DNA from: an uncultured Butyrivibrio sp.
Lineage (GTDB): Bacteria > Bacillota > Clostridia > Lachnospirales > Lachnospiraceae
Direction of reading: 5' to 3'
DNA length: 64,000 nt
Assembly (NCBI GenBank): GCA_947167765.1
Contig: CAMVJI010000003.1
Span: 1 to 64,000, forward strand
The position numbers and the translations under genes are program-made. Below the pieces are notes generated by a model. That model was not told the DNA's origin. It saw nothing but the letters and a program-made list of their open reading frames with translations, and made no database searches. Shown in pieces: positions 10,236 through 36,183 of the stretch (the first letter of the stretch is position 1; every line of letters begins with the position of its first letter).

Positions 10236-10238
10236 TTT

Positions 10239-10423
10239 GTGCATTGCCCTAGTGGGCGTCAGTATTATTTCTACATAATATTCATAACAATTAAAGTAAG
10301 TTAAAGGAGGAGTGTCAATGCCCTAGTGGGCGTCAGTATCATTTCTACGGAAGAATGATGAAACTTGTAAAAGTAGCAACAAAAATGTGTCAATGCCCTA
10401 GTGGGCGTCAGTATCATTTCTAC
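10239..10423 (-). CRISPR. CRISPR array A: 3 repeats, 2 spacers; variant repeat GTGTCAATGCCCTAGTGGGCGTCAGTATCATTTCTAC
   Basis: Repeats 10239-10274 (degenerate), 10312-10348, 10387-10423; leader on the right, so transcribed on minus. Confidence 0.95.
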
Positions 10424-12905: not shown

Positions 12906-13667
12906 TTAAGATTTAACCTCAGATAGTAATCCATATCCAACGTGAGTTTTTGCGCCCACTCCGAAATCACATATTATTGTTCTGAACAGGTTCTTTTGCT
13001 CCTCAGAATTTATCAATGCATTCTTAGCTGGGATAAACCTAAACTCAAAAATCACTTCTGGATTAATCCTTATCATAGTGATTGGATTAGGCTCCTGAAG
13101 GGGTGAACCATTATGCGGAGTAATACTATCTGTCCCCAAATATCGCATCCCGCATCTTTTTGTTCCGCCAATAATATATGAGTCCAAAAACCTTGCTTGG
13201 TTCTTTAAAACGCTTTCTCCCATTCTACCAAACAACTGCGTTTCCAATTTCTTTACATCAATGTTGTCATCCTCCAGCACTTCTTTAATATACTCAGGAT
13301 AACTAAATGCATTTCTTAATAGACCTTTCAGTGAACTGCCTGGAAGATATGGTAGCCCAGTAACATAATCAAAGGTAAATCCTAGCTCCATTTCTCCTTT
13401 AGCCCCTGAAGAATGAGTGTTACCGGTACCTATTAGTGTACCTGGATACTCTGTTTTTAATTGTATAGTCTCAAAACTAGTACCATTCAGAGTTTTGACA
13501 CAAACATCGGCATTAAGAGCTTTTGAAACTGAATCATTCATAGCCTTAATCGCTTCTCTGTTAATCATAGCCATATCGCTATTATTCACAGCATCTTTCA
13601 AATATGAAACATTGAAAATATAGTTAGCGTTAGCTTTACAATAAGGCATTATATTTATTCCTTTCAT
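12906..13667 (-). CDS. cmr6: Type III-B CRISPR RAMP protein Cmr6
   Basis: GLPYLPGSSLKGLLRNAFSYPEYI and GVGAKTHVGYGLL. Confidence 0.9.
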   Translation of the reverse strand: MKGINIMPYCKANANYIFNVSYLKDAVNNSDMAMINREAIKAMNDSVSKALNADVCVKTLNGTSFETIQLKTEYPGTLIGTGNTHSSGAKGEMELGFTFDYVTGLPYLPGSSLKGLLRNAFSYPEYIKEVLEDDNIDVKKLETQLFGRMGESVLKNQARFLDSYIIGGTKRCGMRYLGTDSITPHNGSPLQEPNPITMIRINPEVIFEFRFIPAKNALINSEEQKNLFRTIICDFGVGAKTHVGYGLLSEVKS

Positions 13668-14044
13668 TTTTCTATCCTTTCAAACAAGTCACATGCCATT
13701 TTAAATGCTGCCGCTGCATTTAGTAATTCATCCTTTGAAAACTTAGCATCCTCAAAATACTTTACAATCTCCTGTGAAGAGCATTTATTTTTTTTAGGGT
13801 CGATTGTAATTCCACTTAACAATTCATAAATACAGGCAACCACAGTATCTTTATTAGTTTCCGAATTTGCGCTCCAAAATCCGCTTATTGCAGAACGATC
13901 CGTGCCCATTATTACAGCCGCACCAAATGAAGAAAATGCACTCCGATATTTCTTGTCAATCTTTCCTTCATGCGTCAGCAAACTCTTATTTAGTATTTCA
14001 TAAGCCTTATCAATTTTGTCTTCAACCCATTCTTTATCGTTCAT
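13664..14044 (-). CDS. cmr5: Type III-B CRISPR protein Cmr5
   Basis: Small helical protein between cmr4 and cmr6; YRSAFSSFGAAVIMGTDRSAISGFWSA. Confidence 0.85.
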   Translation of the reverse strand: MNDKEWVEDKIDKAYEILNKSLLTHEGKIDKKYRSAFSSFGAAVIMGTDRSAISGFWSANSETNKDTVVACIYELLSGITIDPKKNKCSSQEIVKYFEDAKFSKDELLNAAAAFKMACDLFERIEK

Positions 14045-14055
14045 ATCGCCACCTT

Positions 14056-14910
14056 TTATTGATACTCATTTAATAGGACTAATCCATCTCCAATAGTTGC
14101 ATCCCCTCCAAGCTGAACAAGATTTTTTCCACGTATCTGATTTACAAGTTCATCAAGAAGACCACCATTATCACTCATTATTGAAAACCAAAATATGCTC
14201 TCATGTGGAACAAACTCTTCATACCACAAATTTTTGCTTTCACTATTAACAAGCTTGTTTCTTGCCATAACTGGTAGATACTTGATTCTTTCAGTGAAGT
14301 CTTCTTCATCAAGTATAACCATCGGAATATTCAGCGGAATTCCGGCTTTAGTCAAGACATCCCGTATACCAACAGGTATTTCACCCGGTAAATCATTGTT
14401 TTTATTTAACGGGATACCTTCAACAGCTTTTACATCTCCATGAACATAGGAATTTGAAGCTTGTAACGCTTCAATAGATGTCTTTATTTCTGATGTTCTT
14501 CCCAACACTTCCATGAAAGAAGAAAACTGTTGCAAAGCAGTTTTCGTAGTAACCATCGCATAAGGGCATCCCCCATCAGATACTCTCATCGGAATAGCAA
14601 GAAGCTGAGCTGCTGTGAACTTTCCTTTACCTGGCACACTACGTGTTTTTACCTTATCATCTGACTTGCCTTGAGTTTCATCTTGTTTAATTGGCTCTGA
14701 TCCAAAAAATGGAACAAGTTCACTTATCAGCCTTTCATCCTCTAATGAGAAGTGTTCACGAAGCGCCCCTTTTATTCCAGAAGCAAACACCGTTGGATAT
14801 CCGGTTACAGGATCTCTCTGAACCTGTTTATCTACCACATTGTAGTTAGCATCACCACTTCCAGCATGAATGTTAGTCACACATTTCATAAAATATATTT
14901 TAGAATCCAT
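14056..14910 (-). CDS. cmr4: Type III-B CRISPR RAMP protein Cmr4
   Basis: NIHAGSGDANYNVVDKQVQRDPVTGYPTVFASGIKGALREHF. Confidence 0.95.
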   Translation of the reverse strand: MDSKIYFMKCVTNIHAGSGDANYNVVDKQVQRDPVTGYPTVFASGIKGALREHFSLEDERLISELVPFFGSEPIKQDETQGKSDDKVKTRSVPGKGKFTAAQLLAIPMRVSDGGCPYAMVTTKTALQQFSSFMEVLGRTSEIKTSIEALQASNSYVHGDVKAVEGIPLNKNNDLPGEIPVGIRDVLTKAGIPLNIPMVILDEEDFTERIKYLPVMARNKLVNSESKNLWYEEFVPHESIFWFSIMSDNGGLLDELVNQIRGKNLVQLGGDATIGDGLVLLNEYQ

Positions 14911-14913
14911 TAC

Positions 14914-16011
14914 TTATTCTCCTTTTACTGTCCAAATGTCATTAAAGCCCCATTGTGATAAAGCATCTGAATAACACTCTTTCAATCTATCTCCATTGTC
15001 GTTTACAAAGAAAACACTTCCTGCATTTACAAGATAATGTAGCGAACTCTTTTTTAACCTATCAAAATAATTGTCCTTTTTACTTGTGTCCGTGGTCATA
15101 TATCTGAAGTTCCTAAGTGATGTAATAGCATAAGCCACAGAATCTGAATAGTCGCTTTCAAAAAATACATCAGAAGCTGCATACAGCATCGAATACCCCA
15201 TGGGAATACGACCTTTCAAAGCGTTTTTCATCTCTTCATGAAATGAATCAGAATTTATATCCTTTTCTTCAAGTTTGACAGCTTTTACATAAAACGATGA
15301 TTTATCCTGTCCCATTTGGACAATGTCCGTTTTCTCAAAAGCATCCACCGATTCATCTACTTCTACTAGGCAGCAGAAACTCCAGTCATTCTGATCTCTC
15401 TTCAAAAATTTGTACTCTTTTTTAAAAAGAGCGTCATCTCCGCCATTTTTTAAAATCCCAGTTTTAACTACAGAATCAAAAATATGTGAGTCCTTAACAC
15501 AATCCCCCCCAGCATTCATCCAACCATTGAAAAGGCCTTTCTTTGAATCGTATTCTTTATCGTTTGGCAACACAAAGTAATGTCCTGCAAACTCACCTAC
15601 TTTTTCCATTTCCATGAATGCTATCTTTGAATCTTTATTAACCTTGGCATTTCGTGGGCATCTGTAATACTCATCTATTCCATCAAAGAGATGCAGCGGC
15701 CCTATCTTCTTTATCATTCCAAATGAATTATCTCCGTGTAAATCAAAGCTCTTTTCTCCAACAAGTCCATTATTCTCGTAAAATCCTTTTTCATCTGGTT
15801 TAGATTCTTTGTTGTTTTTTAGTACAAAATATCTGATAGTACCAATAATGGTTGACTGTGAAGGAAGAAGTCCGGAACGAATAAAGTATGAATTACTTTC
15901 AGCACTACTTTCTTCTGGTTTTGCATAATTATTGAATCCCATATTCTTTTCTTCGCCAAAGAAATAAGGTTCAATAGGAGTAAATATTACCCGATACGCT
16001 TTATTGCTCAA
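14914..16011 (-). CDS. cmr3: Type III-B CRISPR protein Cmr3
   Basis: RVIFTPIEPYFFGEEKNMGF...SGLLPSQSTIIGTIRYFVL; position in operon. Confidence 0.85.
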   Translation of the reverse strand: MSNKAYRVIFTPIEPYFFGEEKNMGFNNYAKPEESSAESNSYFIRSGLLPSQSTIIGTIRYFVLKNNKESKPDEKGFYENNGLVGEKSFDLHGDNSFGMIKKIGPLHLFDGIDEYYRCPRNAKVNKDSKIAFMEMEKVGEFAGHYFVLPNDKEYDSKKGLFNGWMNAGGDCVKDSHIFDSVVKTGILKNGGDDALFKKEYKFLKRDQNDWSFCCLVEVDESVDAFEKTDIVQMGQDKSSFYVKAVKLEEKDINSDSFHEEMKNALKGRIPMGYSMLYAASDVFFESDYSDSVAYAITSLRNFRYMTTDTSKKDNYFDRLKKSSLHYLVNAGSVFFVNDNGDRLKECYSDALSQWGFNDIWTVKGE

Positions 16012-17651
16012 CGTCCCTCATCTCCTTTCTCAACAAAGAATTTGCATACTCTTAAAACAGAAGTTATACCACTAACTACAAATGCTTCATCATCAGCAGC
16101 CACATTCTTTATTCGAATCATCTCTTTACTCTTATCGCTAGCTATAGCGTCTCCTAATTTACATAGCAACGCTGTGTCCCTTTTTTGAGAATCACTGTCA
16201 AAGAAATTATCCAGAACAGTTGCCCTTTTTTCGCGAATTACTTTTCCAGACCAAATTTTAGAAATGACTCGCTTTTGATTCTCTAAAGTAAAAATGGCAC
16301 TATTGGCAAGTTCAGAAATATCTATACCATGCCTCTCTCCATCTTTACTTTCACTCTTATTGATAAAACTACGTAATACATCCAGCATCTGTTTCATGGA
16401 ACTATCATCATCCGTTCCTTGCTTTAGCACCATTTCAACCTTTTGTCCGCTAGCTTTTCTAACATCTAGTGCAATGCTGTTATAAATTCTTTTTATTATC
16501 TCGCCCTCATCTTTATCCTTATTCTCATACTTGGCCACATCAAAAAGCAAACGCTTTGCATCTTCAACCGCTTCATATAGAGGATATCTAAAATAATTAA
16601 TACTGATTCCATAGGACAAAGATGGCCCCAAATCTTCATCAGAATCCTTGACTTGTTCTTTTAAAATATCTCTTTCTTCCTTAAATGTAGAATTAAATTT
16701 ATCAGTAATATCCTGACATAAATCAAAAACAGTCTTCTCCTTATTTCTCAGAGGTGCTAAGAAAAGAAGATCATCACCTCCAGCATAAATAGTTATCCCA
16801 CCATATTGATTAATTAACTTGGCACTTTCACTGGTATACTCCAAACAATGCCTAGAAAACTCCTTCTGTCTTTCTTCTGGCGATATACCTTCGAATTCAT
16901 TTCCCAACGTCTCTACAACCGTTCCCATATGATCACCATCCGCATAAACAACCGCAAAATAATTGGAAATCTTATAATCGGATATCGAACCATCACCTTG
17001 TGCTATACTTTCAATTTCTTTAATTGCACCAGATTTTTTAGTAAGTACTTTACTAATTCCAGCAAATCCTCCAGACATTTCTGTCGGATTAACTAGTGAG
17101 CATTCTTTGTATTTTTTTACACGTTCATTACTACTAAGAACAGATGAAATGAAACGTGCGTTACCAGATGGCCTTACCGATTCCATCAGTTCTAACACGT
17201 CCAGTTTAGACGACAAAGTTTTAAGAGCATTATTATCAGCGATTTCCGAAACGCCGATACACCTGATATATATGTACTTATTGATGTAATCAATCACATC
17301 TGCTTCGCTTTTATCAAGACATTTTGCAATTTCAATGGCCCTTAGTCTTTTTATCTCAAGAAAGGTATCTTCCAGTTTTTTTTCGAAGGCATCCTCTTCA
17401 TTTCCAAAATAGATGAAGATAATGCGATCATGATATCTTCCGATGCCATCATCTTTTCCTTTTGTCTCATCGCCATTTTCAAAGTAGGGAGAGATGATCG
17501 TTACTTTCTTACTATCTATATCAAGGATCTCCTTACACAAATCTCTGGTGATGCAGGAAAAGAAATAACTAGCCATCCACAATCCTGCCGGCTTAGTAAC
17601 ACTACTTATAGTTTCATGTATAGGACCTACTGTGATACCATAGTACCTCAT
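16008..17651 (-). CDS. cas10: Type III-B Cas10/Cmr2 with GGDD palm motif
   Basis: VVYADGDHMGTVVE and ITIYAGGDDLLFLAPL; no obvious N-terminal HD. Confidence 0.93.
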   Translation of the reverse strand: MRYYGITVGPIHETISSVTKPAGLWMASYFFSCITRDLCKEILDIDSKKVTIISPYFENGDETKGKDDGIGRYHDRIIFIYFGNEEDAFEKKLEDTFLEIKRLRAIEIAKCLDKSEADVIDYINKYIYIRCIGVSEIADNNALKTLSSKLDVLELMESVRPSGNARFISSVLSSNERVKKYKECSLVNPTEMSGGFAGISKVLTKKSGAIKEIESIAQGDGSISDYKISNYFAVVYADGDHMGTVVETLGNEFEGISPEERQKEFSRHCLEYTSESAKLINQYGGITIYAGGDDLLFLAPLRNKEKTVFDLCQDITDKFNSTFKEERDILKEQVKDSDEDLGPSLSYGISINYFRYPLYEAVEDAKRLLFDVAKYENKDKDEGEIIKRIYNSIALDVRKASGQKVEMVLKQGTDDDSSMKQMLDVLRSFINKSESKDGERHGIDISELANSAIFTLENQKRVISKIWSGKVIREKRATVLDNFFDSDSQKRDTALLCKLGDAIASDKSKEMIRIKNVAADDEAFVVSGITSVLRVCKFFVEKGDEGR

Positions 17652-19237
17652 GTCGGTTTATCCTCCTTATTTGATGCTTCTACTCTAACTATCTTGTAAT
17701 CTTTTTGTTTAATCCTACAAAAATCGGAGCTTTTTACTGTTTTAAATTTCTTTTTAATTGGGTCACGATTTTCAGAAGGATTATCATTATCATTAAAATC
17801 CTTCATGAATCCATCAAGGAATTTTTCCATTTCAAATGAGTCAGGAGTTTTTATTTTTTCGGTTTTTTCTAAGACATTTCCCTTATCTTTTCCCTTATCT
17901 TTAATCTTCTTTCCTTCCATAGTAAAAACACTTCCAAGAAGCTTATCATCAACCTTTCCTGGCAAAATAAAAATGTGATTTGGTAAGACCTTAAACACTA
18001 TCGGAGAGGGAACTCTTTGGATTTCCTCGTTATCCGCATGTATACAAATATTTCCCTCTTTGTACACCTGTCTATCATCCTTTTTAAAAGGTTTTCTAAA
18101 TGATATTGTATCTGGCACTCCTAAAAAAGCACGTACATATCGATACTTATCATTGTCATATCGTTCATCATTCAATACGTGATCTTCGCTTTCTTTATTC
18201 ACATCCTGAGAATTTTTAAAGAAAGTTCTTTTCATAAAAGCCTTATCGTTCCGCGGAACCTTTCCATTTTCTTTTTTTCCACCATCCTCAGAATAGTATT
18301 TCCCATCTGAAAAGAAATAACGATATATGTAGCCTTTAAAATAGTCTCCCTTAGAGTTATACCCGCCTTTCATCAACGAATATATTAGCCATATATCATT
18401 TAGCTGTTGCTCAACAATATTCTGCTTTGGGTTACATTCACGACTTTGAGCATTATATCTTCTGTCTATTTTGTAAATTGTTCCGCCTAAAGCATTGGCA
18501 ATTTCTTCAGGTGTAGGTTCCTCTAATTTCTTACCATCAACCTTAACCACATAGAAGCTACCGAGGCCTTTATCTGAACGAGTACCAAAATTATTAATCA
18601 AAAAGAAATTGGAAATGTGTTTCTTTACATTCGAAAGAAGTTCTGTGTTCATTGTAAAAACTGTTAACGTTATTTCTGATTCGTAAAGAATCCCCTCCTT
18701 AAATAGCTCCATTATGTTTTGACATTTGTCCCATCCAGAGCCAGAAGCCATATTCCCAAAATATGACTTAGGATTGCTAATGGTCCCTACATATTTAGAT
18801 GTATTGTTTGGATTTATATTGGATTCGATTTCACTGACAAGCTTATCGGCTTTCTTTTTATCGTTATCATTAAGTTTTCCGGGTTTTTCGGGGGTTCCTA
18901 TTAAAGCTTTAATGCCTTTTTTTCTATACGATGATATTTTAACTCTTGGGTTCTCACCAACTGAAATAGTCATCCTATAGTTAAGAGCATGAACTTTTTC
19001 GTCATCAGGTTTGATAAACCATCCCTTATGTTCCGCTTTAAAGTTCTTTAGTTTTTCATCATAATCTTCTTTATTCTCGAATTTGTTCCTGAGGATAAAT
19101 TCTTTGTTGAAGATGTATTTATCTAATCTCGGTTTCACGTCAGATGCTCTTAAACATGCTCCAAAATCATCGTATTGAAAATGAATCATAGGTGTTACCT
19201 GTTTAAGTGTAACCACACATTTGAATTTGCTATCCAT
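17648..19237 (-). CDS. cmr1: Type III-B CRISPR RAMP protein Cmr1
   Basis: LKQVTPMIHFQYDDFGACLRASDVKPRLDKYI; RAMP-like FGTRSDKGLGSFYV. Confidence 0.85.
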   Translation of the reverse strand: MDSKFKCVVTLKQVTPMIHFQYDDFGACLRASDVKPRLDKYIFNKEFILRNKFENKEDYDEKLKNFKAEHKGWFIKPDDEKVHALNYRMTISVGENPRVKISSYRKKGIKALIGTPEKPGKLNDNDKKKADKLVSEIESNINPNNTSKYVGTISNPKSYFGNMASGSGWDKCQNIMELFKEGILYESEITLTVFTMNTELLSNVKKHISNFFLINNFGTRSDKGLGSFYVVKVDGKKLEEPTPEEIANALGGTIYKIDRRYNAQSRECNPKQNIVEQQLNDIWLIYSLMKGGYNSKGDYFKGYIYRYFFSDGKYYSEDGGKKENGKVPRNDKAFMKRTFFKNSQDVNKESEDHVLNDERYDNDKYRYVRAFLGVPDTISFRKPFKKDDRQVYKEGNICIHADNEEIQRVPSPIVFKVLPNHIFILPGKVDDKLLGSVFTMEGKKIKDKGKDKGNVLEKTEKIKTPDSFEMEKFLDGFMKDFNDNDNPSENRDPIKKKFKTVKSSDFCRIKQKDYKIVRVEASNKEDKPT

Positions 19238-19300: not shown

Positions 19301-19807
19301 TCACTCGAAGTATTCATTTGCAGCTTTCACCAGACCATACAGCCCATTAAAATCTCTCCTGTATGCCTTCCAGCTACTTGCAAAGCCAGGTATTATGCTG
19401 TCTATATAATCTACATCCCTAAAAAGCCAGTTGTAATAAAACTCTGTGGTAGAATTATTCTTTTTTCTCCACCAAATAAACATATCAACAATCATCATGC
19501 TTCTTTTGACTGCTTTTATCTTTTCTTCTAACTTATCTGGCTTCTCCAAAGATTTATTTGAGTTTTCTAATTTCTCAATTTGATTATTTAACTCTTTTAT
19601 TTCTCTCTCATGGTCTTCTTTCAATTTATTGATTTCATCAACTTTGTCAGTGAGAGCCTCAAGGATCATATTAAGATTTTCATCATAGTCCTCATCTTTG
19701 GAAATCTTTTTTATCAGATCAAAAGCCTTAGGCTCATTTTTTAATTCATTTTTCAAATCAGCGTAAGCTTTTAAATAGTTTTCAACAACATCTTTTGACA
19801 TCATCAT
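19301..19807 (-). CDS. Uncharacterised coiled-coil protein in the type III-B operon
   Basis: 168 aa, central coiled coil, overlaps the upstream gene by 4 nt. Confidence 0.6.
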   Translation of the reverse strand: MMMSKDVVENYLKAYADLKNELKNEPKAFDLIKKISKDEDYDENLNMILEALTDKVDEINKLKEDHEREIKELNNQIEKLENSNKSLEKPDKLEEKIKAVKRSMMIVDMFIWWRKKNNSTTEFYYNWLFRDVDYIDSIIPGFASSWKAYRRDFNGLYGLVKAANEYFE

Positions 19808-21438
19808 TTCCTCCTGTTACGCCATTTTGCTCTTATTCCAATAGCAAAGCACCACACAATTACCAATAATACAAATGTCCACATAAAACCATCCTTTGGA
19901 CTGAAATTAAATGCGCTGCCACTAATGGCCCTGTCTATTACTATCACTTCTGATGCGAAGAGAAAATTGTAAATAAATGAAGCTATAGCCAGGATAATCG
20001 ATACATATGTAAGTATTTCAACACTTGTATTCACTGAAATATTAAGATCTGTATCCGTGATTTCATACAGACTGGTAAGATTAGCATTGAGTTTTTCTTC
20101 TTCACTCTCTATCAAAAAAGCCTCTTTTAGCATGTCATACATTTCTATGGCCTGCTGTTCGGATGAAACTTCGGAAAAAAGTAACTGACTGTCAAATGCA
20201 GCATGCCTTTCCTGTAGATTCATGATATTTCTAATATCATCTCTTTTTAGCTTTCTTCCATTAGCTGCAAAGTGTCTTGCAATATCCGCAGTTTCACGAT
20301 TAAACTTGACAATGCTAGCCTTCTGAACAATTGCAATGTAGACCATCTGAAGATAGCAGCTAATAAAGTTTTCATATAAGAAGTTCATCTCACCACCAAT
20401 AGCTGCTGAAGAAACCATTCCCATCCCCATAGGAGTTATTGTATAGAGCGAGCCCCATGGTATCCATCTTTTATACAATGCCTTGTTTATCAAATCCAGG
20501 CACATAACCTCATCCGGACACGTGCATGATCCTGAGCTATCAGCATAAGCTATCTCATATATACTTTTTCTTAATACATCCTCTGTTTCAAAATTATAGT
20601 GTTTGCTTGCACTATCAAACTTAACAGAATTAATCCACGCCTCATCACTTACAGCGAAAGCCACATACATTCTGTCATCCAAAGCTGGCTTAATACATAT
20701 CTCCTTTTCATTTTCTACCTGCTTTGATGTGAATCGGTACTCACTTCCAAAAGATAATATTTTCTTTATGAAATCACATGTATGTTCCAGGGAAATATCA
20801 TTTGGAGAATACTCCTTTTTTTCATAGACTTTTTCTATGAATCCCTTAAAATCATCTTTGACTGTTTGAACATTTGGTATGTCCACTATAAGTTTATCTG
20901 CACTAATATTTGTCTTATTGTTAATAAATGGAAGCGTTATTCTTCTTCCATAATCATTAATGTTTTTTACAACTTCAATTCCGGTCTGCTCTCCTCCCTT
21001 CCCATCTTTTCCCTGATTTTCGCATTCCATTATAAAAAGTCCCACACCAGTATTTACCAGCCTTACCCTAATAGCATTTATGTTCAATACATAGTGTTTG
21101 TCTTTTTTTATTATCTGATAGGTTCCGTTATTCCTAGATCCTTTAAGAAGATAGTTCGAACAAATATCATCTTCATATCCCAGAAAGGATTTCCTTACAT
21201 ATGGATAATAGTACTGATACTGTTTGTAAAATCCCAAAGCCTCATCTAGACTGCCTGTCTCCTGATTACTTGAAATATCATCAACGTTCTTTAGGTTTGT
21301 ATTCTCCCATTGCTGATTGTCTTCAAACACTCTTTTTAGAGCCTCATACTCCTTATCAGATGTCACTCCGTACATGTTCCACGTAAAGGGTAGGATAAAA
21401 GTATGATAACTATATACTTTCGTTGTTTCCTCAGCCAT
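19804..21438 (-). CDS. CorA-like membrane protein, candidate type III signalling effector
   Basis: Large soluble N-terminus; C-terminal DTDLNISVNTSVEILTYVSIILAIASFIYNFLF + second TM, CorA-like topology; in the Cmr operon. Confidence 0.6.
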   Translation of the reverse strand: MAEETTKVYSYHTFILPFTWNMYGVTSDKEYEALKRVFEDNQQWENTNLKNVDDISSNQETGSLDEALGFYKQYQYYYPYVRKSFLGYEDDICSNYLLKGSRNNGTYQIIKKDKHYVLNINAIRVRLVNTGVGLFIMECENQGKDGKGGEQTGIEVVKNINDYGRRITLPFINNKTNISADKLIVDIPNVQTVKDDFKGFIEKVYEKKEYSPNDISLEHTCDFIKKILSFGSEYRFTSKQVENEKEICIKPALDDRMYVAFAVSDEAWINSVKFDSASKHYNFETEDVLRKSIYEIAYADSSGSCTCPDEVMCLDLINKALYKRWIPWGSLYTITPMGMGMVSSAAIGGEMNFLYENFISCYLQMVYIAIVQKASIVKFNRETADIARHFAANGRKLKRDDIRNIMNLQERHAAFDSQLLFSEVSSEQQAIEMYDMLKEAFLIESEEEKLNANLTSLYEITDTDLNISVNTSVEILTYVSIILAIASFIYNFLFASEVIVIDRAISGSAFNFSPKDGFMWTFVLLVIVWCFAIGIRAKWRNRRK

Positions 21439-21439
21439 A

Positions 21440-21970
21440 TCAGATTTCTCCTTTAAGTTTTTTCCAAATCCGGATGCTCATCCGAACATCATCAAACGAG
21501 TTGTGAAGTCTAAGATCACTGCAATCTACTATTGTTCTTCGCTCTACCCTAGGTGAATATCCCTTTACATATAACATGCTGCTCAGATCCATCAAGGGAA
21601 ATGGGGCTTTAAATTCACGTTCCTTGATAGCATTCTCAACTGCCTTAATGAAAAGCCTGGCTTCCACAGGAACAGGAACATCTGCTATAACATCGTAATC
21701 TGCATATTCTCTGTAAAAAGAGTAGAAAGCTTCTATAAGCTCTTTTTCAGAATCATAATAATCATCATCTGAGCGAACCGAATCTTTAAGATATGGTAAA
21801 ACATTATCCTTCACCCACGGGACACTCACATACTTTTCTGGATTTTTGATAGTTCCATAATAATCCGCAATTTCTTTTCCCGTATCATCTAGCACGATTG
21901 CTGCCACAGATAAAAAGTTGCCGTAAAGGCCGTCTGTTTCCGCATCTACAAAAAAAGTTCCCATTATCAA
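21440..21970 (-). CDS. DEDDh-like 3'-5' exonuclease-fold protein
   Basis: FFVDAETDGLYG (DxE) and C-terminal LHNSFDDVRMSIRIW (HxxxxD). Confidence 0.65.
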   Translation of the reverse strand: MIMGTFFVDAETDGLYGNFLSVAAIVLDDTGKEIADYYGTIKNPEKYVSVPWVKDNVLPYLKDSVRSDDDYYDSEKELIEAFYSFYREYADYDVIADVPVPVEARLFIKAVENAIKEREFKAPFPLMDLSSMLYVKGYSPRVERRTIVDCSDLRLHNSFDDVRMSIRIWKKLKGEI

Positions 21971-21982: not shown

Positions 21983-22927
21983 TCAGGAAATCCTGTATCT
22001 TCCAAATCCAAAGCTGGTATTCTTACCTACGTGGATAAGTTCTCCTGCTATAAGCATTTCAAGTAGTTCCTCACTAACTTCTTTCAATGCCAGCTCTCCC
22101 TCTATGCCTTCAAGTCTCATGGCATCTTGCTTGTGATTAGAGTACCTACGCACACTGACTTTCTTATGGCTTTCATGTAGTACTGTAGGAATCACAATAG
22201 ACCTAACGTAATCTAATTCATGTATGTCACTAGATATCCCCTCAAAGCAGTCAAGCATATATATCCTTCTGCATAATGCTTCTATCAGGGCATCCGGCCT
22301 AAATTCACTGAGGTTTTCTCCTCTGTATTTGATTGTAAGTGGAGTTTTAAATACGATTTTAATTTGGTCCTCAGAACTTAGTTTTTCTTTTCTGTAACTA
22401 ACGTAATCAGAAACCTTACGTGTCCTGTACTCATTCATACGGAGCTCATCATGCTGAAATATAAATGCTCCTTCAGTATTTGTTACAGCAACTATCGAAT
22501 ACTGACTCTTTTCTTTACCTAAGCCAGCTTGTCCAAGCATATAAAATGCGTTGAGAAACTGTTTGAAATACACGATTGTCTTTCCAAAAAGGATCAGATT
22601 AAACTGCATCCTGTCACCAGCGCCAAAGTGATCATGATAATCTTCGCACTCCAGTACGTATCCAACACTGTCCCCTTTTGTCATAAAGCTTGGAGTAATC
22701 TCCATTTTGGAATACATGGTACGCCTGACAACACACTCAGACTCAAACTCACACTCCTCGCACACTCTATCACTTATACAGTTGGACTCTAAAAGCATCT
22801 CGCCCATCCCACCCCTGAGGGCAGAAGATTTATATACAGGTACTGTACAGTCATCAATAAATTCTATGGTGAAGTGAAGCTTAATATATCGAATATCGTA
22901 AGCCCTTTTAATATTCTCGCCTGTCAT
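21983..22927 (-). CDS. cas6: Cas6-type CRISPR RNA endoribonuclease
   Basis: SSALRGGMGEMLLE, CxxC-rich insertion, QAGLGKEKSQYSIVAV, C-terminal GKNTSFGFGRYRI. Confidence 0.85.
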   Translation of the reverse strand: MTGENIKRAYDIRYIKLHFTIEFIDDCTVPVYKSSALRGGMGEMLLESNCISDRVCEECEFESECVVRRTMYSKMEITPSFMTKGDSVGYVLECEDYHDHFGAGDRMQFNLILFGKTIVYFKQFLNAFYMLGQAGLGKEKSQYSIVAVTNTEGAFIFQHDELRMNEYRTRKVSDYVSYRKEKLSSEDQIKIVFKTPLTIKYRGENLSEFRPDALIEALCRRIYMLDCFEGISSDIHELDYVRSIVIPTVLHESHKKVSVRRYSNHKQDAMRLEGIEGELALKEVSEELLEMLIAGELIHVGKNTSFGFGRYRIS

Positions 22928-23904
22928 CTCTTGTGCGGATCTCTCTCTTCCTTCATCTTGTACATTTTCTTATCAGCTGTTTCTATGTACTCATCAAGAG
23001 TTTCCATGTTTTCTTTTGGTGGTAAAAAGACATATCCATAGCTTGCAGCTACTTGGAATGGGTTATTATGACTATCGTTGTAGGATCTAAGTTCTTCTTC
23101 AAGTGTTTTCTCAAAAGATTCCAGCGCAGTGCTGTCTGCCGCAAGAGGACAAAATACCAAAAACTCATCTCCTCCTGTTCGGATAATACTGGAGCCCTGA
23201 GGAGAAGCTTTTTTGAGAGCGTCAGATACAGCCGCTATGGCCGTATCCCCTGCACTGTGGCCAAAGGTATCGTTCATGTACTTAAGGCCATTAAGATCCA
23301 GAACACAAACAAATATGTTCTTGTTGTTATTTACTGCATCTTTCAGTGCTATAGTCTCAAAATACTTAAGGCCCTTTCTGTTATAACAGCCTGTCTGGGC
23401 ATCAGTCATATTCTCGATAAATAGTTTGTTGTACTCTTCCTTGAGCGTGCTGATAGTCTTAATAAGCTCGCTATGTTCAGTAAGAAGTGCATCTTTCTGG
23501 GTATGGATATCTTCCAAAAGGATCAGATACTCATGGCCTGTGGGACTATCCTCAATTTTCGAATTACATATAGTTATTCTTGACCAGTAATAACTCAGAT
23601 CTGTATGTCTGATACGGCATTCACAAGAAATATAGACCTTCTCAGAAAGAGTCTCATGAAGGTCGTCGATATTACTAAGAAGAGTTATACTCTCTCGGTC
23701 TTCAGGATGTGTATTCTTATATAAAGTGGAAAACAAATCATCATAGATTTTGACGCTTGAGATATCAAGAGTTTCTAGCTCTTTATTACAATCAACGGCA
23801 TGGCAGAAAAAAGTATCCTCCTCAACTAAAACAATTAGCTGATAGAGGCTCTTTATTGCATTACCTATTGAACCCTTTTTCTGTTCCGTCAGATAACGAT
23901 CCAT
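22924..23904 (-). CDS. PAS-GGDEF diguanylate cyclase in the type III-B operon
   Basis: VLDLNGLKYMNDTFGHSAGD...IIRTGGDEFLVFCPL; stop overlaps the cas6 start (ATGA). Confidence 0.9.
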   Translation of the reverse strand: MDRYLTEQKKGSIGNAIKSLYQLIVLVEEDTFFCHAVDCNKELETLDISSVKIYDDLFSTLYKNTHPEDRESITLLSNIDDLHETLSEKVYISCECRIRHTDLSYYWSRITICNSKIEDSPTGHEYLILLEDIHTQKDALLTEHSELIKTISTLKEEYNKLFIENMTDAQTGCYNRKGLKYFETIALKDAVNNNKNIFVCVLDLNGLKYMNDTFGHSAGDTAIAAVSDALKKASPQGSSIIRTGGDEFLVFCPLAADSTALESFEKTLEEELRSYNDSHNNPFQVAASYGYVFLPPKENMETLDEYIETADKKMYKMKEERDPHKR

Positions 23905-25344: not shown

Positions 25345-26130
25345 GTTTCAATAATCTAATGGGCTTTTTTTATTTTTCTACTGACAAATTTTATAAGGAG
25401 GCAAAATGAAGAAAGCGTGTATCAATGCCCTAATAGGCTTTTTTTATTTTTCTACGAACGTAATATGACGCAGACGCAGACTGCCAGCCCCGTGTATCAA
25501 TGCCCTAATGGGCTTTTTTATTTTTCTACAAGGTAGCCGAAGTAGACTTAGAGCTTGCTGAGGATATTGTATCAATGCCCTAATGGGCTTTTTTTATTTT
25601 TCTACGCGAACTGTAACCGTTTATTCAGCAACGGGTGAAGTCATGTATCAATGCCCTAATGGGCTTTTTTTATTTTTCTACCGCCTATCCTACTTATTGT
25701 GAAATGTGTCAGAAAAACGGTGTATCAATGCCCTAATGGGCTTTTTTTATTTTTCTACAAATGTAAAATTTAGTGACAATTTTATTGATTTCGTATCAAT
25801 GCCCTAATGGGCTTTTTTTATTTTTCTACTGGTTTTTATGCAAAGAGTAAACAGGCCGATTATTGTGTATCAATGCCCTAATGGGCTTTTTTTATTTTTC
25901 TACAGGAAAGACATGAAGAATCTTAGAACATTAGTTGCTGGGTATCAATGCCCTAATGGGCTTTTTTTATTTTTCTACCGTACCAGAAGGAGAGAACATG
26001 ACAAAGATTAGAACATTGTATCAATGCCCTAATGGGCTTTTTTTATTTTTCTACCCGAGATAAATGAGATGAGTCAGGTAGGTGAGAAAAAAAGTATCAA
26101 TGCCCTAATGGGCTTTTTTTATTTTTCTAC
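25345..26130 (-). CRISPR. CRISPR array B: 11 repeats (first degenerate), 10 spacers; repeat GTATCAATGCCCTAATGGGCTTTTTTTATTTTTCTAC
   Basis: Direct reading; repeats 36-37 nt, spacers 34-40 nt; degenerate repeat on left, leader on right. Confidence 0.98.
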
Positions 26131-26340: not shown

Positions 26341-29166
26341 TTAAATCTCAATAACCCATTCTACACCATTTTCTGTCTTTCTCCTTCTCATGATACCAAC
26401 TTCAAGTTCCAACTCATCGATTCCTTGTTTATCAAAAATATCTCCCAATTCCTTCTCGTACTTATTCACAGTTTTATCAATGCTACGCTTTTGCTTTTTC
26501 AAATCCAGGATTTTATATACGATATCCTGCGCTTTGCTATAGATATTCATCTCCGCTTTGACCTTGGTTTCATTTTCTTTTGTAAGTGTCCTACTGGATG
26601 GCAAAGTGATATCACTTTGGAGATCATCTGACAGAGAGATAGCATGAAGCACTGGCGATGGATAACAGTTCTTATTCCTTTTGAAGTTACAGCTGCACCC
26701 TATCTCTGCAGTAAGCTGTTTATACTGATCTCTAAGCTTCACACAGCTTATTGGTTTTTCGGGCATCTTCCGTATAAAACCTTCAGTGACATTAAACTTG
26801 TAATTCAACGTGAAAGACATGACTTTATGAACAAACTCTTTTCCCTCTGTTCCAAGATGCCCAAAAACATACAATATGGTGAGACGTTCAAAGTGGTTCA
26901 AGTACCCGGTCTTTACCGATTTTAGGCATAGATATCTTAGCAACCCGCATTTCATCAACACCTCCGATACTTCCGACTCCAATTCCCCAAAACAAGAAAT
27001 ATCTGTGTCCACCTCTGTTTTCTGCTGCGAACTCTGAGCCTTGGTACTCGTTGCAATCACCTTTTTTATATCAGAAAGTGCTACTTTCCCAATCGAATCC
27101 AGGGCGCTGTTGATATTAAGAATTGGCACTCCAGCTTCATCTATAAAGTAAGAGCGCTCTCCGGTTTTTCCATGTATTCCATAAGGAATCTTTATTACTT
27201 GTCCATATTTACCAGCTTTGATCCTTGTTCGATTAGGAAAGAACTCTATAGATATATCATTTGATTTTTCTAAGTCATCTTCCAAGATTTCACTCAGCAT
27301 ATTGGCATAGCGTGTTGGAATCCACTCTGTAAAGAAGAGCCATACATGATACCCTCTGTTTCCAGAGTATTCAATATATGAAGGAAAGCCCATTTTTGAA
27401 AAATGGCTCTTTATCATCTGTGCCATATCTAGCGCTTTCTGAAGATACGCCTTAAATTCATCGCTTCCTCGAGTGACCTTTAGCAGTATATTCTTACATA
27501 TATCTACATCACATACCATATATCTCACTGTGGCATTTGGGCGCTGTACATAGGAATCGATAGTCACTTTACCCATGAGATGTTCTCTAATGAAATTCTC
27601 TGTGAGCGGTCTTAAATCTGGCAACACCTTGCGAGAACTATTAGTATCAAGTTCCTCCCTTGCAAAAAGATCTTCCCTACCCACAAACAACTTAGCCATT
27701 TTTCCTACTGTATCACTCTTATAGATGATGTCACAGGCAGAACTACCAAAGTTGACCATAGCATTAAATGCTTTCTCCTGAAACGCCTTAAGTTGCTCAC
27801 ATTTATCTTGCCAGAACTCCCCCTGAGGATATAATTTCAGATCTGTGTAACTTTGCATTATGTCTATAGCAGTGTCATAGTCTTCCCTAATAATGAAACT
27901 CCTATAACTATGTAATAGTTCGTGCATCAGTTTCTTCAGCTCTTGATTATCTTGAAGTGTAACTTCGCGTTTCGGAACATGATAAAACTCTTCGTATTCA
28001 AGCAGTTCTGCCTCCCAACACTTTACCGCCCGCCAAGTATTAGCAAGATACTCTGCTATATCTCTATAAATATTTTGGACATGTGGTCTTTTTGATAGTA
28101 TTTCAGCCCTTGCTTCTTCAGCATTGCCCTTTGAATAAACCAATGCTGCAATCTCAAATATAGAACCGATTTCCCTTTCTCCTCTGAAATACTGCTCCCA
28201 ACCACCAACTATCTCTAGCACCTTCTTAAGCTTATCTTCTATACCAATATCTCCCGAAGTAAGCCACATCATTTCTAGCCTTTCATAGAGATTTGATTCT
28301 GCCTTAGCTGGAATTGCTTTCCCATTATCATCAAAATGATATCCCAGGAAATCAAAGCCCTCTGAAACATAGCCAAGCACAGATTTCTTATCATTTAGTT
28401 TTAAGCCAAGCACATCAAATCTGTTTTTGATTTCCTGCAACAGATTCATTGCTAAATTATAATCATTGCAAAGGATAACCATGTCATCTGAGTATCTTGC
28501 AAAAAAGATATCTTTGACTCCAGTCAACCAATTATCAAAATCCATCAAATATACATTTGATAGTAATGGAGCAAGACTGGATCCCTGATAAATTCCACTT
28601 CTTTTTTCAATCAATTCTCCTGTAAGCTCATCAAGACTTATTGAGCAAGAGCATTCCCTGATTAGTTCCAGGGTATCTTCTTCCTGAATAGCCACATACA
28701 GTTTTGTCCTAAGAGTATCCCACAGAATTGAATCGAAAAAGTTGGTAATATCAACTTTCAAAAACACGCTGTGTTTTCCTTCAAGTATCTTTCTACTTAG
28801 TTCTTCTACAGCAATAATAGCTGACTTGTCACTCCTATATGCATAGGTCTGACTAGAGAACTTGTTGTCAAATATCTCAGTAAGCTCGTTTGCCAAGGAT
28901 TGCTGTACAGCTTTATCTCTCATGGAATACAACGCTATCGTCCTGACCTTTTCACCCTTGTACAAATTTACAAGTTTTACCGGAAGAGATTGATACTCAT
29001 GATTTACCAATTCTTTGTTAAGCGCCTTTAATTCCTCTTTACTATTTTCAGAAAACTGATCATAAGTAACACCATCAACGCCTGCAGAAGGCTTGTTTTT
29101 TCTTACTCTATCCCAAGCTCTTTGCAAATTCTGTAAATCAATAGTTCTACTATATATGCTCATCAT
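26341..29166 (-). CDS. Reverse transcriptase fused to archaeo-eukaryotic primase-polymerase (RT-AEP, CRISPR-associated)
   Basis: RT: KPSAGVDGVTYDQF, FLKVDITNFFDSI, ARYSDDMVIL. AEP: MVCDVDICKN, IEYSGNRGYHVWLFF, IKIPYGIHGKTGERSYFID; Cys-rich C-terminal CSCNFKRNKNCYPSPVLHAI. Confidence 0.92.
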   Translation of the reverse strand: MMSIYSRTIDLQNLQRAWDRVRKNKPSAGVDGVTYDQFSENSKEELKALNKELVNHEYQSLPVKLVNLYKGEKVRTIALYSMRDKAVQQSLANELTEIFDNKFSSQTYAYRSDKSAIIAVEELSRKILEGKHSVFLKVDITNFFDSILWDTLRTKLYVAIQEEDTLELIRECSCSISLDELTGELIEKRSGIYQGSSLAPLLSNVYLMDFDNWLTGVKDIFFARYSDDMVILCNDYNLAMNLLQEIKNRFDVLGLKLNDKKSVLGYVSEGFDFLGYHFDDNGKAIPAKAESNLYERLEMMWLTSGDIGIEDKLKKVLEIVGGWEQYFRGEREIGSIFEIAALVYSKGNAEEARAEILSKRPHVQNIYRDIAEYLANTWRAVKCWEAELLEYEEFYHVPKREVTLQDNQELKKLMHELLHSYRSFIIREDYDTAIDIMQSYTDLKLYPQGEFWQDKCEQLKAFQEKAFNAMVNFGSSACDIIYKSDTVGKMAKLFVGREDLFAREELDTNSSRKVLPDLRPLTENFIREHLMGKVTIDSYVQRPNATVRYMVCDVDICKNILLKVTRGSDEFKAYLQKALDMAQMIKSHFSKMGFPSYIEYSGNRGYHVWLFFTEWIPTRYANMLSEILEDDLEKSNDISIEFFPNRTRIKAGKYGQVIKIPYGIHGKTGERSYFIDEAGVPILNINSALDSIGKVALSDIKKVIATSTKAQSSQQKTEVDTDISCFGELESEVSEVLMKCGLLRYLCLKSVKTGYLNHFERLTILYVFGHLGTEGKEFVHKVMSFTLNYKFNVTEGFIRKMPEKPISCVKLRDQYKQLTAEIGCSCNFKRNKNCYPSPVLHAISLSDDLQSDITLPSSRTLTKENETKVKAEMNIYSKAQDIVYKILDLKKQKRSIDKTVNKYEKELGDIFDKQGIDELELEVGIMRRRKTENGVEWVIEI

Positions 29167-29175
29167 TTTCTCCTT

Positions 29176-29460
29176 TCAAATAATAAATAGATCATCAAAA
29201 TCATTGGTTGATTCATCAGGCTTGCATCCAAGTTTCGCAATTTTACCAATACAGCTTTTACACAGTTGATAAAACCTGATATTTCCTTCTATTTCACCTG
29301 ACATCAATGTGGCCAGTTGCGAGTACAATTCTTCAAACTGCCCCTCAGTAATGCTACACTCAAATACACTGTACTGTACGCGAGTTCCATAATTTTCCAA
29401 CACCTTCGCTATCTTAGTTCTGGTCCTATCCTTGTCTATGTCATAACTAATCACATACAT
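29176..29460 (-). CDS. cas2: CRISPR-associated endonuclease Cas2
   Basis: MYVISYDIDKDRTRTKIAKVLENYGTRVQYSVFECSI. Confidence 0.97.
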   Translation of the reverse strand: MYVISYDIDKDRTRTKIAKVLENYGTRVQYSVFECSITEGQFEELYSQLATLMSGEIEGNIRFYQLCKSCIGKIAKLGCKPDESTNDFDDLFII

Positions 29461-30451
29461 TTCGGCACCTCCATGAATATGGAGAATATGCTTTTCCGTT
29501 TCTGATGGATCGTTTCAGTTCAGCTATCTGCTCTCTTATCACAGCGCGAAAGCTCTTTTCTCCAGAAAAAGAATTCTTCCCTGTAATCCATCGTTCGTAC
29601 TCATTACAGAATTTCTTAAATCCATCTTCAGTCAGCACAATTCTTCCATCCTCCGAATTCTCAAAATCATTTCTTCCAATCATTCTTTTGTTGAATAGTA
29701 GGAGCACTAACCTATCTACTACCGGTTGCCTAAACTCTTCAACCATATCCATAGACAAAGATTTTCTTCCATATCTTATTCCATGTAAAAATCCCAAATA
29801 AGGTTCAAAAGATTCTGCATCTAAAGCACTGGCCACTTCTTTTGTAAGTAGGGTATAAGCAAGACTGATGATGACATTGATAGGATCCTTTGGTGGTCTT
29901 CTGTTCCTCCCGTTGAACTCAAAGTCACAGTCCAGCATATGTGAAAATGATCTAAAATAGATATTGCTGCACATTCCCTCAACCCCTAGTATTTCATTTG
30001 GAGTAGCCTTTTCATGGAGCGAATTCTGTAGCAGGATCATCTGCTTTATATCCTTATCCCAGTCATATTCTGGTTTTTTTCGCCTATGTTCTCTGATAAT
30101 CTCAATCTGATTCTGTATCTTGTTTCTGACGATAATCTTAGCCATTTCCAGTCTGCGCGCTTCGTCCATATAAAACTGATACTGTTCAAATCTTAAAAAG
30201 ATATTTTTAGATGCTTCTGCAGAAGTACCTCCAAGATACTTTCCACTATAGGTCAGATAGCTCACATCCACTCCCTTCTCCATGAGCATATGGAGTGCTT
30301 GCGTAGTTATCTGAACATTTCCAATGACAGCAATGTTTTCAATTTGAAAAACCGGCATATCAAGAAACCTATTCTGATTCTTAGTAACTATGATCCGTTC
30401 GCCAACCTTTTGGACTGTAGCTCCTTGTTCTTTTACATAGATAACCGCCAT
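29447..30451 (-). CDS. cas1: CRISPR-associated endonuclease Cas1
   Basis: GVEGMCSNIYFRSF, EPYLGFLHGIRYGRKSLSMDMVEEFRQPVVDRL. Confidence 0.97.
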   Translation of the reverse strand: MAVIYVKEQGATVQKVGERIIVTKNQNRFLDMPVFQIENIAVIGNVQITTQALHMLMEKGVDVSYLTYSGKYLGGTSAEASKNIFLRFEQYQFYMDEARRLEMAKIIVRNKIQNQIEIIREHRRKKPEYDWDKDIKQMILLQNSLHEKATPNEILGVEGMCSNIYFRSFSHMLDCDFEFNGRNRRPPKDPINVIISLAYTLLTKEVASALDAESFEPYLGFLHGIRYGRKSLSMDMVEEFRQPVVDRLVLLLFNKRMIGRNDFENSEDGRIVLTEDGFKKFCNEYERWITGKNSFSGEKSFRAVIREQIAELKRSIRNGKAYSPYSWRCRNVCD

Positions 30452-30592: not shown

Positions 30593-31087
30593 GTTATTCA
30601 CGCCCTAATGGGCTTTTTTTATTTTTCTACGTTCGTAAGTCAACAAAGGATCGTGGAGATATCGTGACGTATCAATGCCCTAATGGGCTTTTTTTATTTT
30701 TCTACGCTGCTATCGGTGTTGCCGTTATAGCGGTTGTTGGCCTGTATCAATGCCCTAATGGGCTTTTTTTATTTTTCTACATAAAGAAAGGAAAGAAAAA
30801 AGAAGTTACACTTGAAGACTGTATCAATGCCCTAATGGGCTTTTTTTATTTTTCTACCTAAGGAGGAAGCATAATGGATACAACACTTAAGAAAAGGTAT
30901 CAATGCCCTAATGGGCTTTTTTTATTTTTCTACCATAGACCTAGGAGGAAAGAACATGAACATTAAAAACATCGTATCAATGCCCTAATGGGCTTTTTTT
31001 ATTTTTCTACGCACCGACACGCACAGGAGGAAAACATGAGAACATTAAAAGTATCAATGCCCTAATGGGCTTTTTTTATTTTTCTAC
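30593..31087 (-). CRISPR. CRISPR array C: 7 repeats (first degenerate), 6 spacers; same repeat as array B
   Basis: Direct reading; spacers at 30631, 30706, 30781, 30858, 30934 and 31011. Confidence 0.98.
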
Positions 31088-31234: not shown

Positions 31235-31255
31235 TCTTCTTACAATATCATTATA

Positions 31256-31650
31256 TCACTTTTCCCCTTCTATTTCCGCAATATATCTCCTAAGCTGCCC
31301 TTCCCAGTCCACGTTGTCAGAGTAGTGCAGGCTTCCACGGATTCCAGGATAGGTGCTGTAGTCCTGCCTGGAGCATATCAGGATTGGTACGTCCCAGTGT
31401 TCTTTTTTAGCTATTTCAATCAGCCTGTCGCCACACATCTGCTCACCTGAGCCCCTCTCAGGTGAATACCACATGTCTGTGATAATGAGATCATAGGGAT
31501 TACCTGCTGCCAGGGCCTCTTTGAACCTAGCGATTCCATCGTCCAGGTTTCGCTCGCAGTCAATGTCAGTCACCCTGCAGTGGCATATTCTCCTGAAAGC
31601 TTCTCGCAGACCTCTATTCTCTGCTGTATTATCGGAATCAGGACATGCGC
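31256..31650 (-). pseudogene. Decayed REC-domain (response-regulator-like) gene, mosaic copy of 36184-36591
   Basis: ~280 bp nearly identical to 36184-36591 ending at CTGCAGG; upstream in another frame reads VLI-(frameshift)-DNTAENRGLREAFRRICHCRVTD. Confidence 0.7.
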
Positions 31651-31700: not shown

Positions 31701-33518
31701 TCATGCCAGATAAGTCATAGCTCTGATCTTTAGTTTTCTTTGCTTTGCATATTCATTTATGAAATCTCTGATCTTCTCATCTTTATTTATACTATCGGCG
31801 AATCCGTAACACTGGACTATTGCCCCCGATCGCTCCTCCATGGTGATCAGAGGTTCCCGGATTTTGCTGTTATCCCTAAGAAAAAGGATTCTGCATTCCC
31901 TCCGAGCCATGGCTTCTATGTAGCCTCCATGGCCTACGCAGTGGTGTAGTATTCTGCCTTCTCTTATTATCTCTTTTGCATCTGAGGGCATCAGGACAGA
32001 AAAAGAGCCGTCGGTGTACTCGACTTCATCGGCTTCACACTGCTTTCTCATGGCTATGTCTTTGTCACATTCTTCAATTGTTCTTTTTCTTGTGATAATA
32101 CTGATGAGATCCCCAAGCTTGTTATGAGCATCATGTATTTTTGATGGCTTAATATTTATCGGCACCTCTCCAAAAGCCTTTACCTCTTTATAGAAAGGAT
32201 CATCATCCCTCATTCCATCAATATATGAGAGATATCTCTTTCTCATTTTCAGATAGTCAAGGAGTTCTGATGCAAGCCTGTAGCGTTTCGACTCATCTGC
32301 TTTCTCGATGGAGCAGATCGTTTTTGCTGCAGAGAACAGGTCTTCTTTGTCCAGCCTGCCGGCATATCCCTCAAAGTCATAATGGTGGGAGCTGTAAACC
32401 AATGCTGCAAATATTCTCTTTTTCACATCCGGAAAATGTTCTCTAAATTCCCGGTCTTTTATGCATTTGGCAAATGTATCCAGGTTGTACGGTATATCTA
32501 TCCCTTCAAGATACTTTAGCTGAGGTCCCGAAATTCCAATGATTTCCGGCAGGGACAGCCTTCCTTCCGTGATTGTGCCGTCATATATTCCTTCCAGTAT
32601 TGTTTTGTACAGCCTTTTGTTTGTTTTTGCCGCCTGCTCAGCACACAAAAAACCTATCTGTGCAAGGATGCTTCCGTATATGACCCGATTGCCTTTGACA
32701 ATCTCTTTTCCTATAGCATATGGTATATACCTCTCAGCGAAAGTGCCACAGAAAAGGTCACCATCTATAAGGCGGTCTTTTGTTTCTCTTTCATATTGAA
32801 ACTGCTTGCAGATCTCCTCCTTCTCCCAGAATCCCGTTGCTGCATTATGTACGAAATAATAGGACCTTTTCTTGTCAAAATATATCCTTGTCTGTTCTTT
32901 CAGAAGGGTATGCTTTCCTTTCCTCTCGCCGGTTATCACCACAAGGTCTTTGTCAATCCTCAGGCAGCTAAAAGCTGCGTGCTTCCTGCCATACAGTTCA
33001 TCGGCTATCCGCTTGGGTACCCCTTCAAGGTTTGATGTTATTTCCCGGGTTTTTGAATATATCTCCAGGAAGGCTCCACTATGCAGTTTGGGAGTTGAGT
33101 GCTTCACATAGGGAAACACCCTTAGCATTGCGTTTTTGTTTCTGATATGGACTTTTTCTTTAAAGATATCAAATATCCTTTCTCCGACTATGTATTTTTC
33201 CTTATCTATGACATCTATGAACTTCGTATTTCTAACCTCATCAAGAGTAATCTCCTTGGTGTCATGGTCACTGCTCTCCCTGAGGATCTTATCGTCTATG
33301 AAGATGTATCGGTATTTTTCGGCAAAAGAGTCTTCGGCAATGATAAAGCATCTGTAGACCAGGCTGTTTTCAATCACTGCCGGATATATATATCCGGTAT
33401 ACTCAGACATATTATAGCGCCTTCGCCTTTTGACCGATTCTTTAAAATCATTATCATCCATGATCTGCGGTATTTCATTATTAAATTCAAGAATATCCCA
33501 TGTGTACTCCATATGCAT
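31701..33518 (-). CDS. PcfJ-like protein (paralog of 7031-8752)
   Basis: SVLMPSDAKEIIREGRILHHCVGHGGYIEAMARRECRILFLRDNSKIREPLITMEERSGAIVQCYGFADSINKDEKIRDFINEYA. Confidence 0.7.
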   Translation of the reverse strand: MHMEYTWDILEFNNEIPQIMDDNDFKESVKRRRRYNMSEYTGYIYPAVIENSLVYRCFIIAEDSFAEKYRYIFIDDKILRESSDHDTKEITLDEVRNTKFIDVIDKEKYIVGERIFDIFKEKVHIRNKNAMLRVFPYVKHSTPKLHSGAFLEIYSKTREITSNLEGVPKRIADELYGRKHAAFSCLRIDKDLVVITGERKGKHTLLKEQTRIYFDKKRSYYFVHNAATGFWEKEEICKQFQYERETKDRLIDGDLFCGTFAERYIPYAIGKEIVKGNRVIYGSILAQIGFLCAEQAAKTNKRLYKTILEGIYDGTITEGRLSLPEIIGISGPQLKYLEGIDIPYNLDTFAKCIKDREFREHFPDVKKRIFAALVYSSHHYDFEGYAGRLDKEDLFSAAKTICSIEKADESKRYRLASELLDYLKMRKRYLSYIDGMRDDDPFYKEVKAFGEVPINIKPSKIHDAHNKLGDLISIITRKRTIEECDKDIAMRKQCEADEVEYTDGSFSVLMPSDAKEIIREGRILHHCVGHGGYIEAMARRECRILFLRDNSKIREPLITMEERSGAIVQCYGFADSINKDEKIRDFINEYAKQRKLKIRAMTYLA

Positions 33519-35600: not shown

Positions 35601-35773
35601 GTGTCAATGCCCTAATGGGCTTTTTTTATTTTTCTACGGAGCAGCCACAGGAAACTCCACAGGAGTATCAATGCCCTAATGGGCTTTTTTTATTTTTCTA
35701 CAGGTGGAGCCAGGTGCTAGGATCAGTGCTAGTTGTGTATCAATGCCCTAATGGGCTTTTTTTATTTTTCTAC
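35601..35773 (-). CRISPR. CRISPR array D: 3 repeats, 2 spacers (27 and 35 nt)
   Basis: Repeats 35601-35637, 35665-35701, 35737-35773; same repeat as arrays B and C. Confidence 0.96.
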
Positions 35774-35918: not shown

Positions 35919-36183
35919 CCTCACTCTTGTCACTAAAGTCATTATACCATTCTCTTATCAATATATCATCAATAACTATACAACTAAGATTTGCGGTCAA
36001 ACGATCATATTCGCCGTTCAAGTAAAATGCTACTTTTTCGTTATACAGTCCTCCAGTATGATAGAATACATCTTCAAGCTCCTGTTGATGTTCTGCTCTA
36101 GGCCTTCGCCATAAACTATAAGTTCAGTAAAAACAAAAAACCTCTCTCTTGCGAGAGAAGCTTTTCATTATTGGTTCGATATA

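Follow-up and report, generated by a model that had tools for sequence, protein, structure and literature searches.

We analysed a 64,000-nucleotide (nt) stretch of DNA from an uncultured Butyrivibrio sp. (contig CAMVJI010000003.1; hereafter, the window) and found that it encodes, at 26341..29166 on the minus strand, a 941-aa fusion of a reverse transcriptase (RT) and a primase-polymerase (PrimPol) beside cas1 and cas2. By its sequence, this protein is a CART-CAPP. The architecture has already been described, since CAPP-RT is one of three CAPP_A architectures (PMC8211822) and CART-CAPPs have been reported (PMC10415136); an initial annotation of the window had rightly cautioned that it might not be new. 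We propose, with a probability of about 0.78, that CART-CAPP is the prespacer-synthesising polymerase of a cas1-cas2 operon serving a type III-B system (Cmr, CorA/DEDD), in which the RT would prime de novo and copy RNA or DNA, PrimPol would assist, and Cas1-Cas2 would insert the products. Behind this proposal stand the domain make-up, the conservation of the operon, the intact active sites and the mRNA-sense spacers that we observed.

The CART-CAPP open reading frame (ORF) is single, intact and uninterrupted. Pfam RVT_1 matched residues 71-278 (28333..28956, minus strand) above its cut-off, at 109.4 bits and 2.5e-31, and this RT domain contains the catalytic D139 and the YSDD motif (residues 225-228, at 28483-28494). 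The AEP/PrimPol domain, residues 482-702 (27061..27723, minus strand), was matched by AEP-TOTE over residues 517-702, also above cut-off (98.5 bits, 5.9e-28), and carries a DxD motif (D553/D555), SGNRGYHVW (S601-W609) and E641. NCBIfam NF040561, CRISPR-associated primase-polymerase type A1, spans residues 482-907 at 257.1 bits against a cut-off of 200, and PADLOC UG10 models match the AEP part. The chain ends in a Mu-Gam/Gp157-like (TOTE) domain, PF22709, at residues 880-941 (26344..26529, minus strand; 75 bits, cut-off 27, 4.3e-21). Hence, the cysteines that had been annotated as a Cys-rich C terminus are not terminal: they form a cluster, C808-C824-C826-C834 (26653..26745, minus strand), that may be a metal site. 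C808, C824 and C826 are retained in every relative spanning the cluster, and C834 is absent from the two loci L047 and L046. Aligned to group II RTs, residues ~300-330 look like the thumb region, and residues ~346-480 form a poorly conserved linker that is possibly TPR-like. In a Pfam scan, the ORF showed neither a helicase nor a nuclease domain.

The two adaptation genes lie directly upstream. The stand-alone cas1 (29447..30451, minus strand; PF01867, 304.7 bits, 7.3e-91; TIGR00287) and cas2 (29176..29460, minus strand; PF09827, 79.9 bits, 1.6e-22) overlap by 14 nt, and the fusion ORF begins 9 nt past cas2. Match scores for all three genes are far above chance. The initial annotation thus had their coordinates and motifs right when compared with the ORFs and the Pfam/NCBIfam matches; the hidden Markov model check that it called for bore out an RT and an AEP in one chain, and the fusion does lie within the adaptation operon, separate from cas1.

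The protein resembles CaCART-CAPP (Caloramator australicus CCJ33120) and GlCART-CAPP (Geobacillus lituanicus) in its N-terminal RT, its PrimPol, its C-terminal domain, its cas1/cas2 neighbours and its type III association. As in that class, a single ORF encodes an RT followed by a CAPP-type PrimPol, beside type III cas1-cas2, with the RT catalytic aspartates present. Going by published descriptions, it differs from CaCART-CAPP in length (941 aa compared with 713 aa), with a longer RT/thumb and a helical linker; and its AEP catalytic residues are intact, whereas the PrimPol domains of the two assayed proteins were inactive. Stand-alone CAPPs (Marinitoga CAPP, PDB 7nqd/7nqf; NF040561) share the AEP, the C-terminal region and the active-site motifs, but they have an N-terminal TPR and no RT, whereas the window ORF carries RVT_1; the AEP motifs and the NF040561 match of a type A1 CAPP are present, and the fused RT sets the protein apart from it. 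RT-Cas1 and Cas6-RT-Cas1 proteins (Fusicatenibacter, Marinomonas) likewise bring a group-II-like RT to type III adaptation, but theirs is fused to cas1 and comes without an AEP, whereas here cas1 is an ORF of its own. An RT UG10-like protein of Bacillus toyonensis (WP_098835363, a 1879-aa ORF) also joins AEP-TOTE-like and RT domains but differs in size and context, with no cas genes near it. The window ORF has AEP-TOTE and Gam-like domains, but not the helicase/endonuclease modules of TOTE conflict systems.

All relatives that we found, complete or partial, belong to the window's own family, Lachnospiraceae. Identity was 61% for locus L011 (a goat-rumen Lachnospiraceae), 54% for L042, 45% for L043, 44% for L044 and 40% for L084, with more distant homologues in L045 (31-40%), L047 (28%) and L046 (26-33%). 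Within the genus, 1 of 37 genomes carries the gene; carriage is therefore sporadic, as expected for horizontally moved defence genes. An alignment-based search of viruses with five alignment rows returned remote AEP matches only. The order cas1-cas2-CART-CAPP is identical in L011, L042, L043, L044 and L045, while the effector modules vary, with Cmr/CorA/DEDD in L044 and Csm6 and Csx1-type CARF-HEPN proteins in L043. From this constant order among changing effectors, we conclude that cas1, cas2 and the CART-CAPP gene form an adaptation cassette.

Might a group II intron maturase simply have landed by chance beside cas genes? The RT is group-II-like and matches the maturase model TIGR04416 at 220.9 bits. 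That score falls below the cut-off of 300, however, and no Rfam family matched anywhere in the 64-kb window, so that no known intron RNA is there. The AEP is fused in frame, and the operon is kept in five further loci. In the RT phylogeny that the initial annotation had suggested, a small tree whose deep CART branches lacked resolution, five Lachnospiraceae CART-CAPPs formed a 100/100 clade, and the group II intron RTs grouped separately (100/99). We regard a chance maturase as next to impossible.

The active sites of both polymerase domains are conserved. RT residues D139, D227 and D228 are kept in all relatives covering these sites, with YSDD changed to YGDD in L046. The AEP residues D553, D555, S601, H607, W609 and E641 are kept in every covering relative, apart from a change of E641 to D in L045; DxD, SGxxGxHxW and the motif III acid are retained in 9 of 9 loci, at domain identities as low as 25%. 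Over 216 residues, the AEP aligns with the crystallised CAPP core 7nqd/7nqf (3.9e-28), with catalytic motifs alike. Identity to relatives is 25-59% in the AEP, slightly behind the RT (28-66%), and residues 706-862, which follow the AEP, are among the best-conserved regions (31-68%). A single copy, that of L045 (genome G773), is broken in two, the interruption lying at an A8 run (~11065) within the AEP. Such preservation of residues and identity is not what one would expect of a domain that had been discarded: the sequence of the AEP in this clade does not suggest a dead relic, and an active AEP in the window protein is possible.

The second line of evidence comes from the spacers. Instead of the two arrays first annotated, the window has four with a shared leader and repeat type, all on the minus strand: array A (25345..26130, 11 repeats), array B (30594..31087, 7 repeats), array C (35601..35773, 3 repeats) and array D (10238..10423, 3 repeats of a variant sequence). 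One leader type is common to all of them. The minus-strand repeat of array A ends ATTGATAC; from this terminus and from where the leader lies, we place the CRISPR RNAs (crRNAs) on the minus strand. We read the 20 window spacers in mRNA sense, that is, as the complement of the crRNA. Five carry a strong Shine-Dalgarno (SD) sequence and an ATG at normal spacing, and a sixth (25904-25941) a weaker version. Besides that one, they lie at 25382-25418 and 25979-26017 (in the 25382-26093 region) and at 30858-30896, 30934-30973 and 31011-31050 (in the 30631-31050 region), the last three being the three spacers of array B nearest to the leader. In 6 of 6, the part of the spacer after the ATG is free of stop codons. 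In the opposite sense, SD+ATG occurred in 0 of 20 spacers.

In 38-mers drawn at random from host and viral DNA, SD+ATG occurs at 0.3-2.3% per strand, depending on motif definition. Against this background, 5-6 of 20 spacers (4 with the narrowest motif) gave P values of 5e-7 to 5e-6, and our first test, on 5 of 18, gave 3e-5, for a motif selected post hoc, once the spacers had been seen. Dinucleotide shuffles reached the observed count in 0 of 1000 trials. Three of the encoded starts are mutually similar (MKNLRTLVA, MTKIRT and MRTLK) and may come from homologous genes; hence, these events may not be independent. Arrays of other CART-CAPP loci had SD+ATG in 2-6 of 82 spacers (P 0.01-0.03), and in 0-1 when read in the opposite orientation. 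RT-Cas1 arrays had it in 0-3 of 58, depending on the motif, and RT-less arrays in 0-1 of 36; these control sets were small, and CART-CAPP arrays did not differ significantly from RT-less ones when compared directly (Fisher P 0.16). One strict match, in genome G326 (MSAA*), is probably no gene start. Two different spacers of G331 match the starts of homologous genes (MKKVELCKALT and KKIELSKALTYA), which fits gene starts having been sampled more than once. A PAM-like (protospacer-adjacent motif) origin of the SD signal was ruled out, as the distance from the SD to the spacer ends varies. We found no paper reporting a start-site bias of spacers in the literature searched, which is not proof of absence.

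Relative to the ATG, the six start-site spacers begin ~9-25 nt before it and end 10-26 nt after it. A bacterial initiation footprint has roughly the same span and length. Translation-initiation regions of foreign mRNAs might be the preferred source of prespacers, taken perhaps as fragments protected by initiating ribosomes or as open transcript 5' ends, with an active PrimPol making the second strand; we consider this specific scheme a long shot. The sites could be favoured for being unstructured, near transcript 5' ends or shielded by initiating ribosomes. More broadly, the start-codon bias lends indirect support to an RNA origin of prespacers, which we infer.

How, then, might CART-CAPP work? 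CaCART-CAPP and GlCART-CAPP have been purified, and their RT domain by itself can both prime and extend, whether the template is DNA or RNA (PMC10415136). By analogy with these orthologues, the RT of the window protein would begin DNA strands de novo, copying foreign RNA (and DNA) to cDNA. The CAPP half would either assist or scaffold; with its active site intact, PrimPol probably contributes DNA-templated synthesis, for example fill-in or the priming of a second strand. Probable binding partners of the Gam-like tail and the Cys cluster are nucleic acid or Cas1-Cas2. Products would then be handed over to Cas1-Cas2, whose insertion would orient crRNAs antisense to mRNA.

The initial annotation had assigned the parts differently, with the AEP laying a primer on RNA and the RT extending it as self-primed cDNA. 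The intact active sites of both domains within one chain agree with that model, as does DNA priming by stand-alone CAPPs (PMC8211822). However, characterised CAPPs favour DNA over RNA templates (PMC8211822), and CART RTs require no separate primase. Since the RT alone primed in both CART-CAPPs assayed and PrimPol was inactive (PMC10415136), precedent contradicts the AEP as primer, and we consider this scheme improbable.

Several points weigh against our proposal as well. PrimPol was inactive in CaCART-CAPP on its own, and an RT mutant of GlCART-CAPP was inactive; a contribution from PrimPol may therefore be wrong, and the reason for its retention is described as unclear (PMC10415136). AlphaFold2, run on the window protein and L011 only, gave a pLDDT of 32 and no usable model, so that the AEP homology rests on sequence. 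Searching IMG/VR for three spacers and two back-translated gene starts as exact patterns gave no target, and all window spacers searched against phages and their own genome gave no target and no self match; with no protospacer for any of them, RNA origin rests on indirect statistics. Type III arrays, moreover, generally prefer the coding strand ~2:1 through selection, in RT-less systems too (PMC8482600).

Two alternatives draw on these points. If the RT does everything, PrimPol could be a catalytically silent scaffold that binds template or Cas1, as proposed for CaCART-CAPP and GlCART-CAPP, whose assays speak for it. A freely decaying domain would not be expected to keep its motifs in every locus down to 25% domain identity, with a sole break in the G773 copy; we give the silent scaffold a real chance, somewhat short of even. 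Alternatively, adaptation could be mostly DNA-based, with mRNA-sense spacers resulting from selection for functional antisense crRNAs. Because selection yields the same bias, we dropped strand bias alone as evidence; the RT-less control array G201 also shows a purine skew. Selection accounts for the strand, however, and not for the clustering of SD+ATG, which was rare in the few controls (0-1 of 36) and absent from the reverse strand. We think mostly DNA-based adaptation unlikely, and we retain the prespacer-synthesising polymerase as our reading.

The locus with CART-CAPP is type III-B. PADLOC identified cmr6, cmr5, cmr4, cmr3, cas10b and cmr1 at 12906..19237, followed in coordinate order by a CorA-like membrane effector (19804..21438; CorA 5.1e-67), a DEDD-type exonuclease-like protein adjoining corA (21440..21970; 37% identity to a protein of L044 that weakly resembles RNase_T) and cas6 (21983..22927; PF10040, PADLOC Cas6 1.4e-67), all on the minus strand. 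In the CorA-1 cluster of S-adenosyl methionine-AMP (SAM-AMP) signalling systems, corA likewise adjoins DEDD (PMC10600005), and cmr genes, cas10, corA and DEDD are all present here, a likeness in gene content. The window system differs in that adaptation runs through cas1, cas2 and CART-CAPP, in place of cas1 or RT-Cas1.

Other features adjoin these genes and arrays. A 744-aa protein (10629-12863) beside cmr6 has a counterpart in the equivalent position of L044 (4248-6485, 43% identity), both loci being CorA/DEDD type III-B; it has no Pfam domain over cut-off, an N-terminal LDESG that looks DUF3800-like by eye, and a weak TPR, and is a candidate unrecognised accessory protein. A PAS-GGDEF diguanylate cyclase gene (22924-23904) shares 4 nt with cas6, and L011 has another GGDEF gene (4157-5992) upstream of cas1; such genes near cas genes are possibly regulatory, or possibly there by chance. 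A 300-nt segment is duplicated at 94% identity by array B (31252-31551) and array C (36180-36479), and PcfJ-like paralogues lie at 7031-8752 and 31701-33518; the arrays therefore seem to have spread through segmental duplication. Between arrays B and C (34044-34601) lies a gene for a protein with HAD_SAK_2, the Swiss Army Knife RNA repair domain of HAD type. In array D, whose spacers span 10275-10386, spacer 10275-10311 ends in AAAGGAGGA. Elsewhere, spacer ATTATGAAAAAAGTTGAGCTGTGTAAAGCGTTGACT of G331 (L085) is present in both arrays (487-1177 and 11485-12610), another spacer occurring twice within one array, and the G773 array (L045, 14080-14761) has spacers of almost purely A and G, such as AAAGAAAAAAAGAAAAGAAAAAGAAAAGAAAAAGAT, as if made without template.

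The CART-CAPP class is published but thinly studied, and the window adds a new member from the Lachnospiraceae. A clade with all AEP catalytic residues preserved makes the question of why CART-CAPPs retain PrimPol testable. Also testable is what RNA-using CRISPR systems sample in nature, the natural sources of RT-linked spacers having been called enigmatic (PMC5513706). The start-site bias is an interesting lead and a hint of copying from RNA; if true of natural spacers, it would count as in vivo evidence of an mRNA source.

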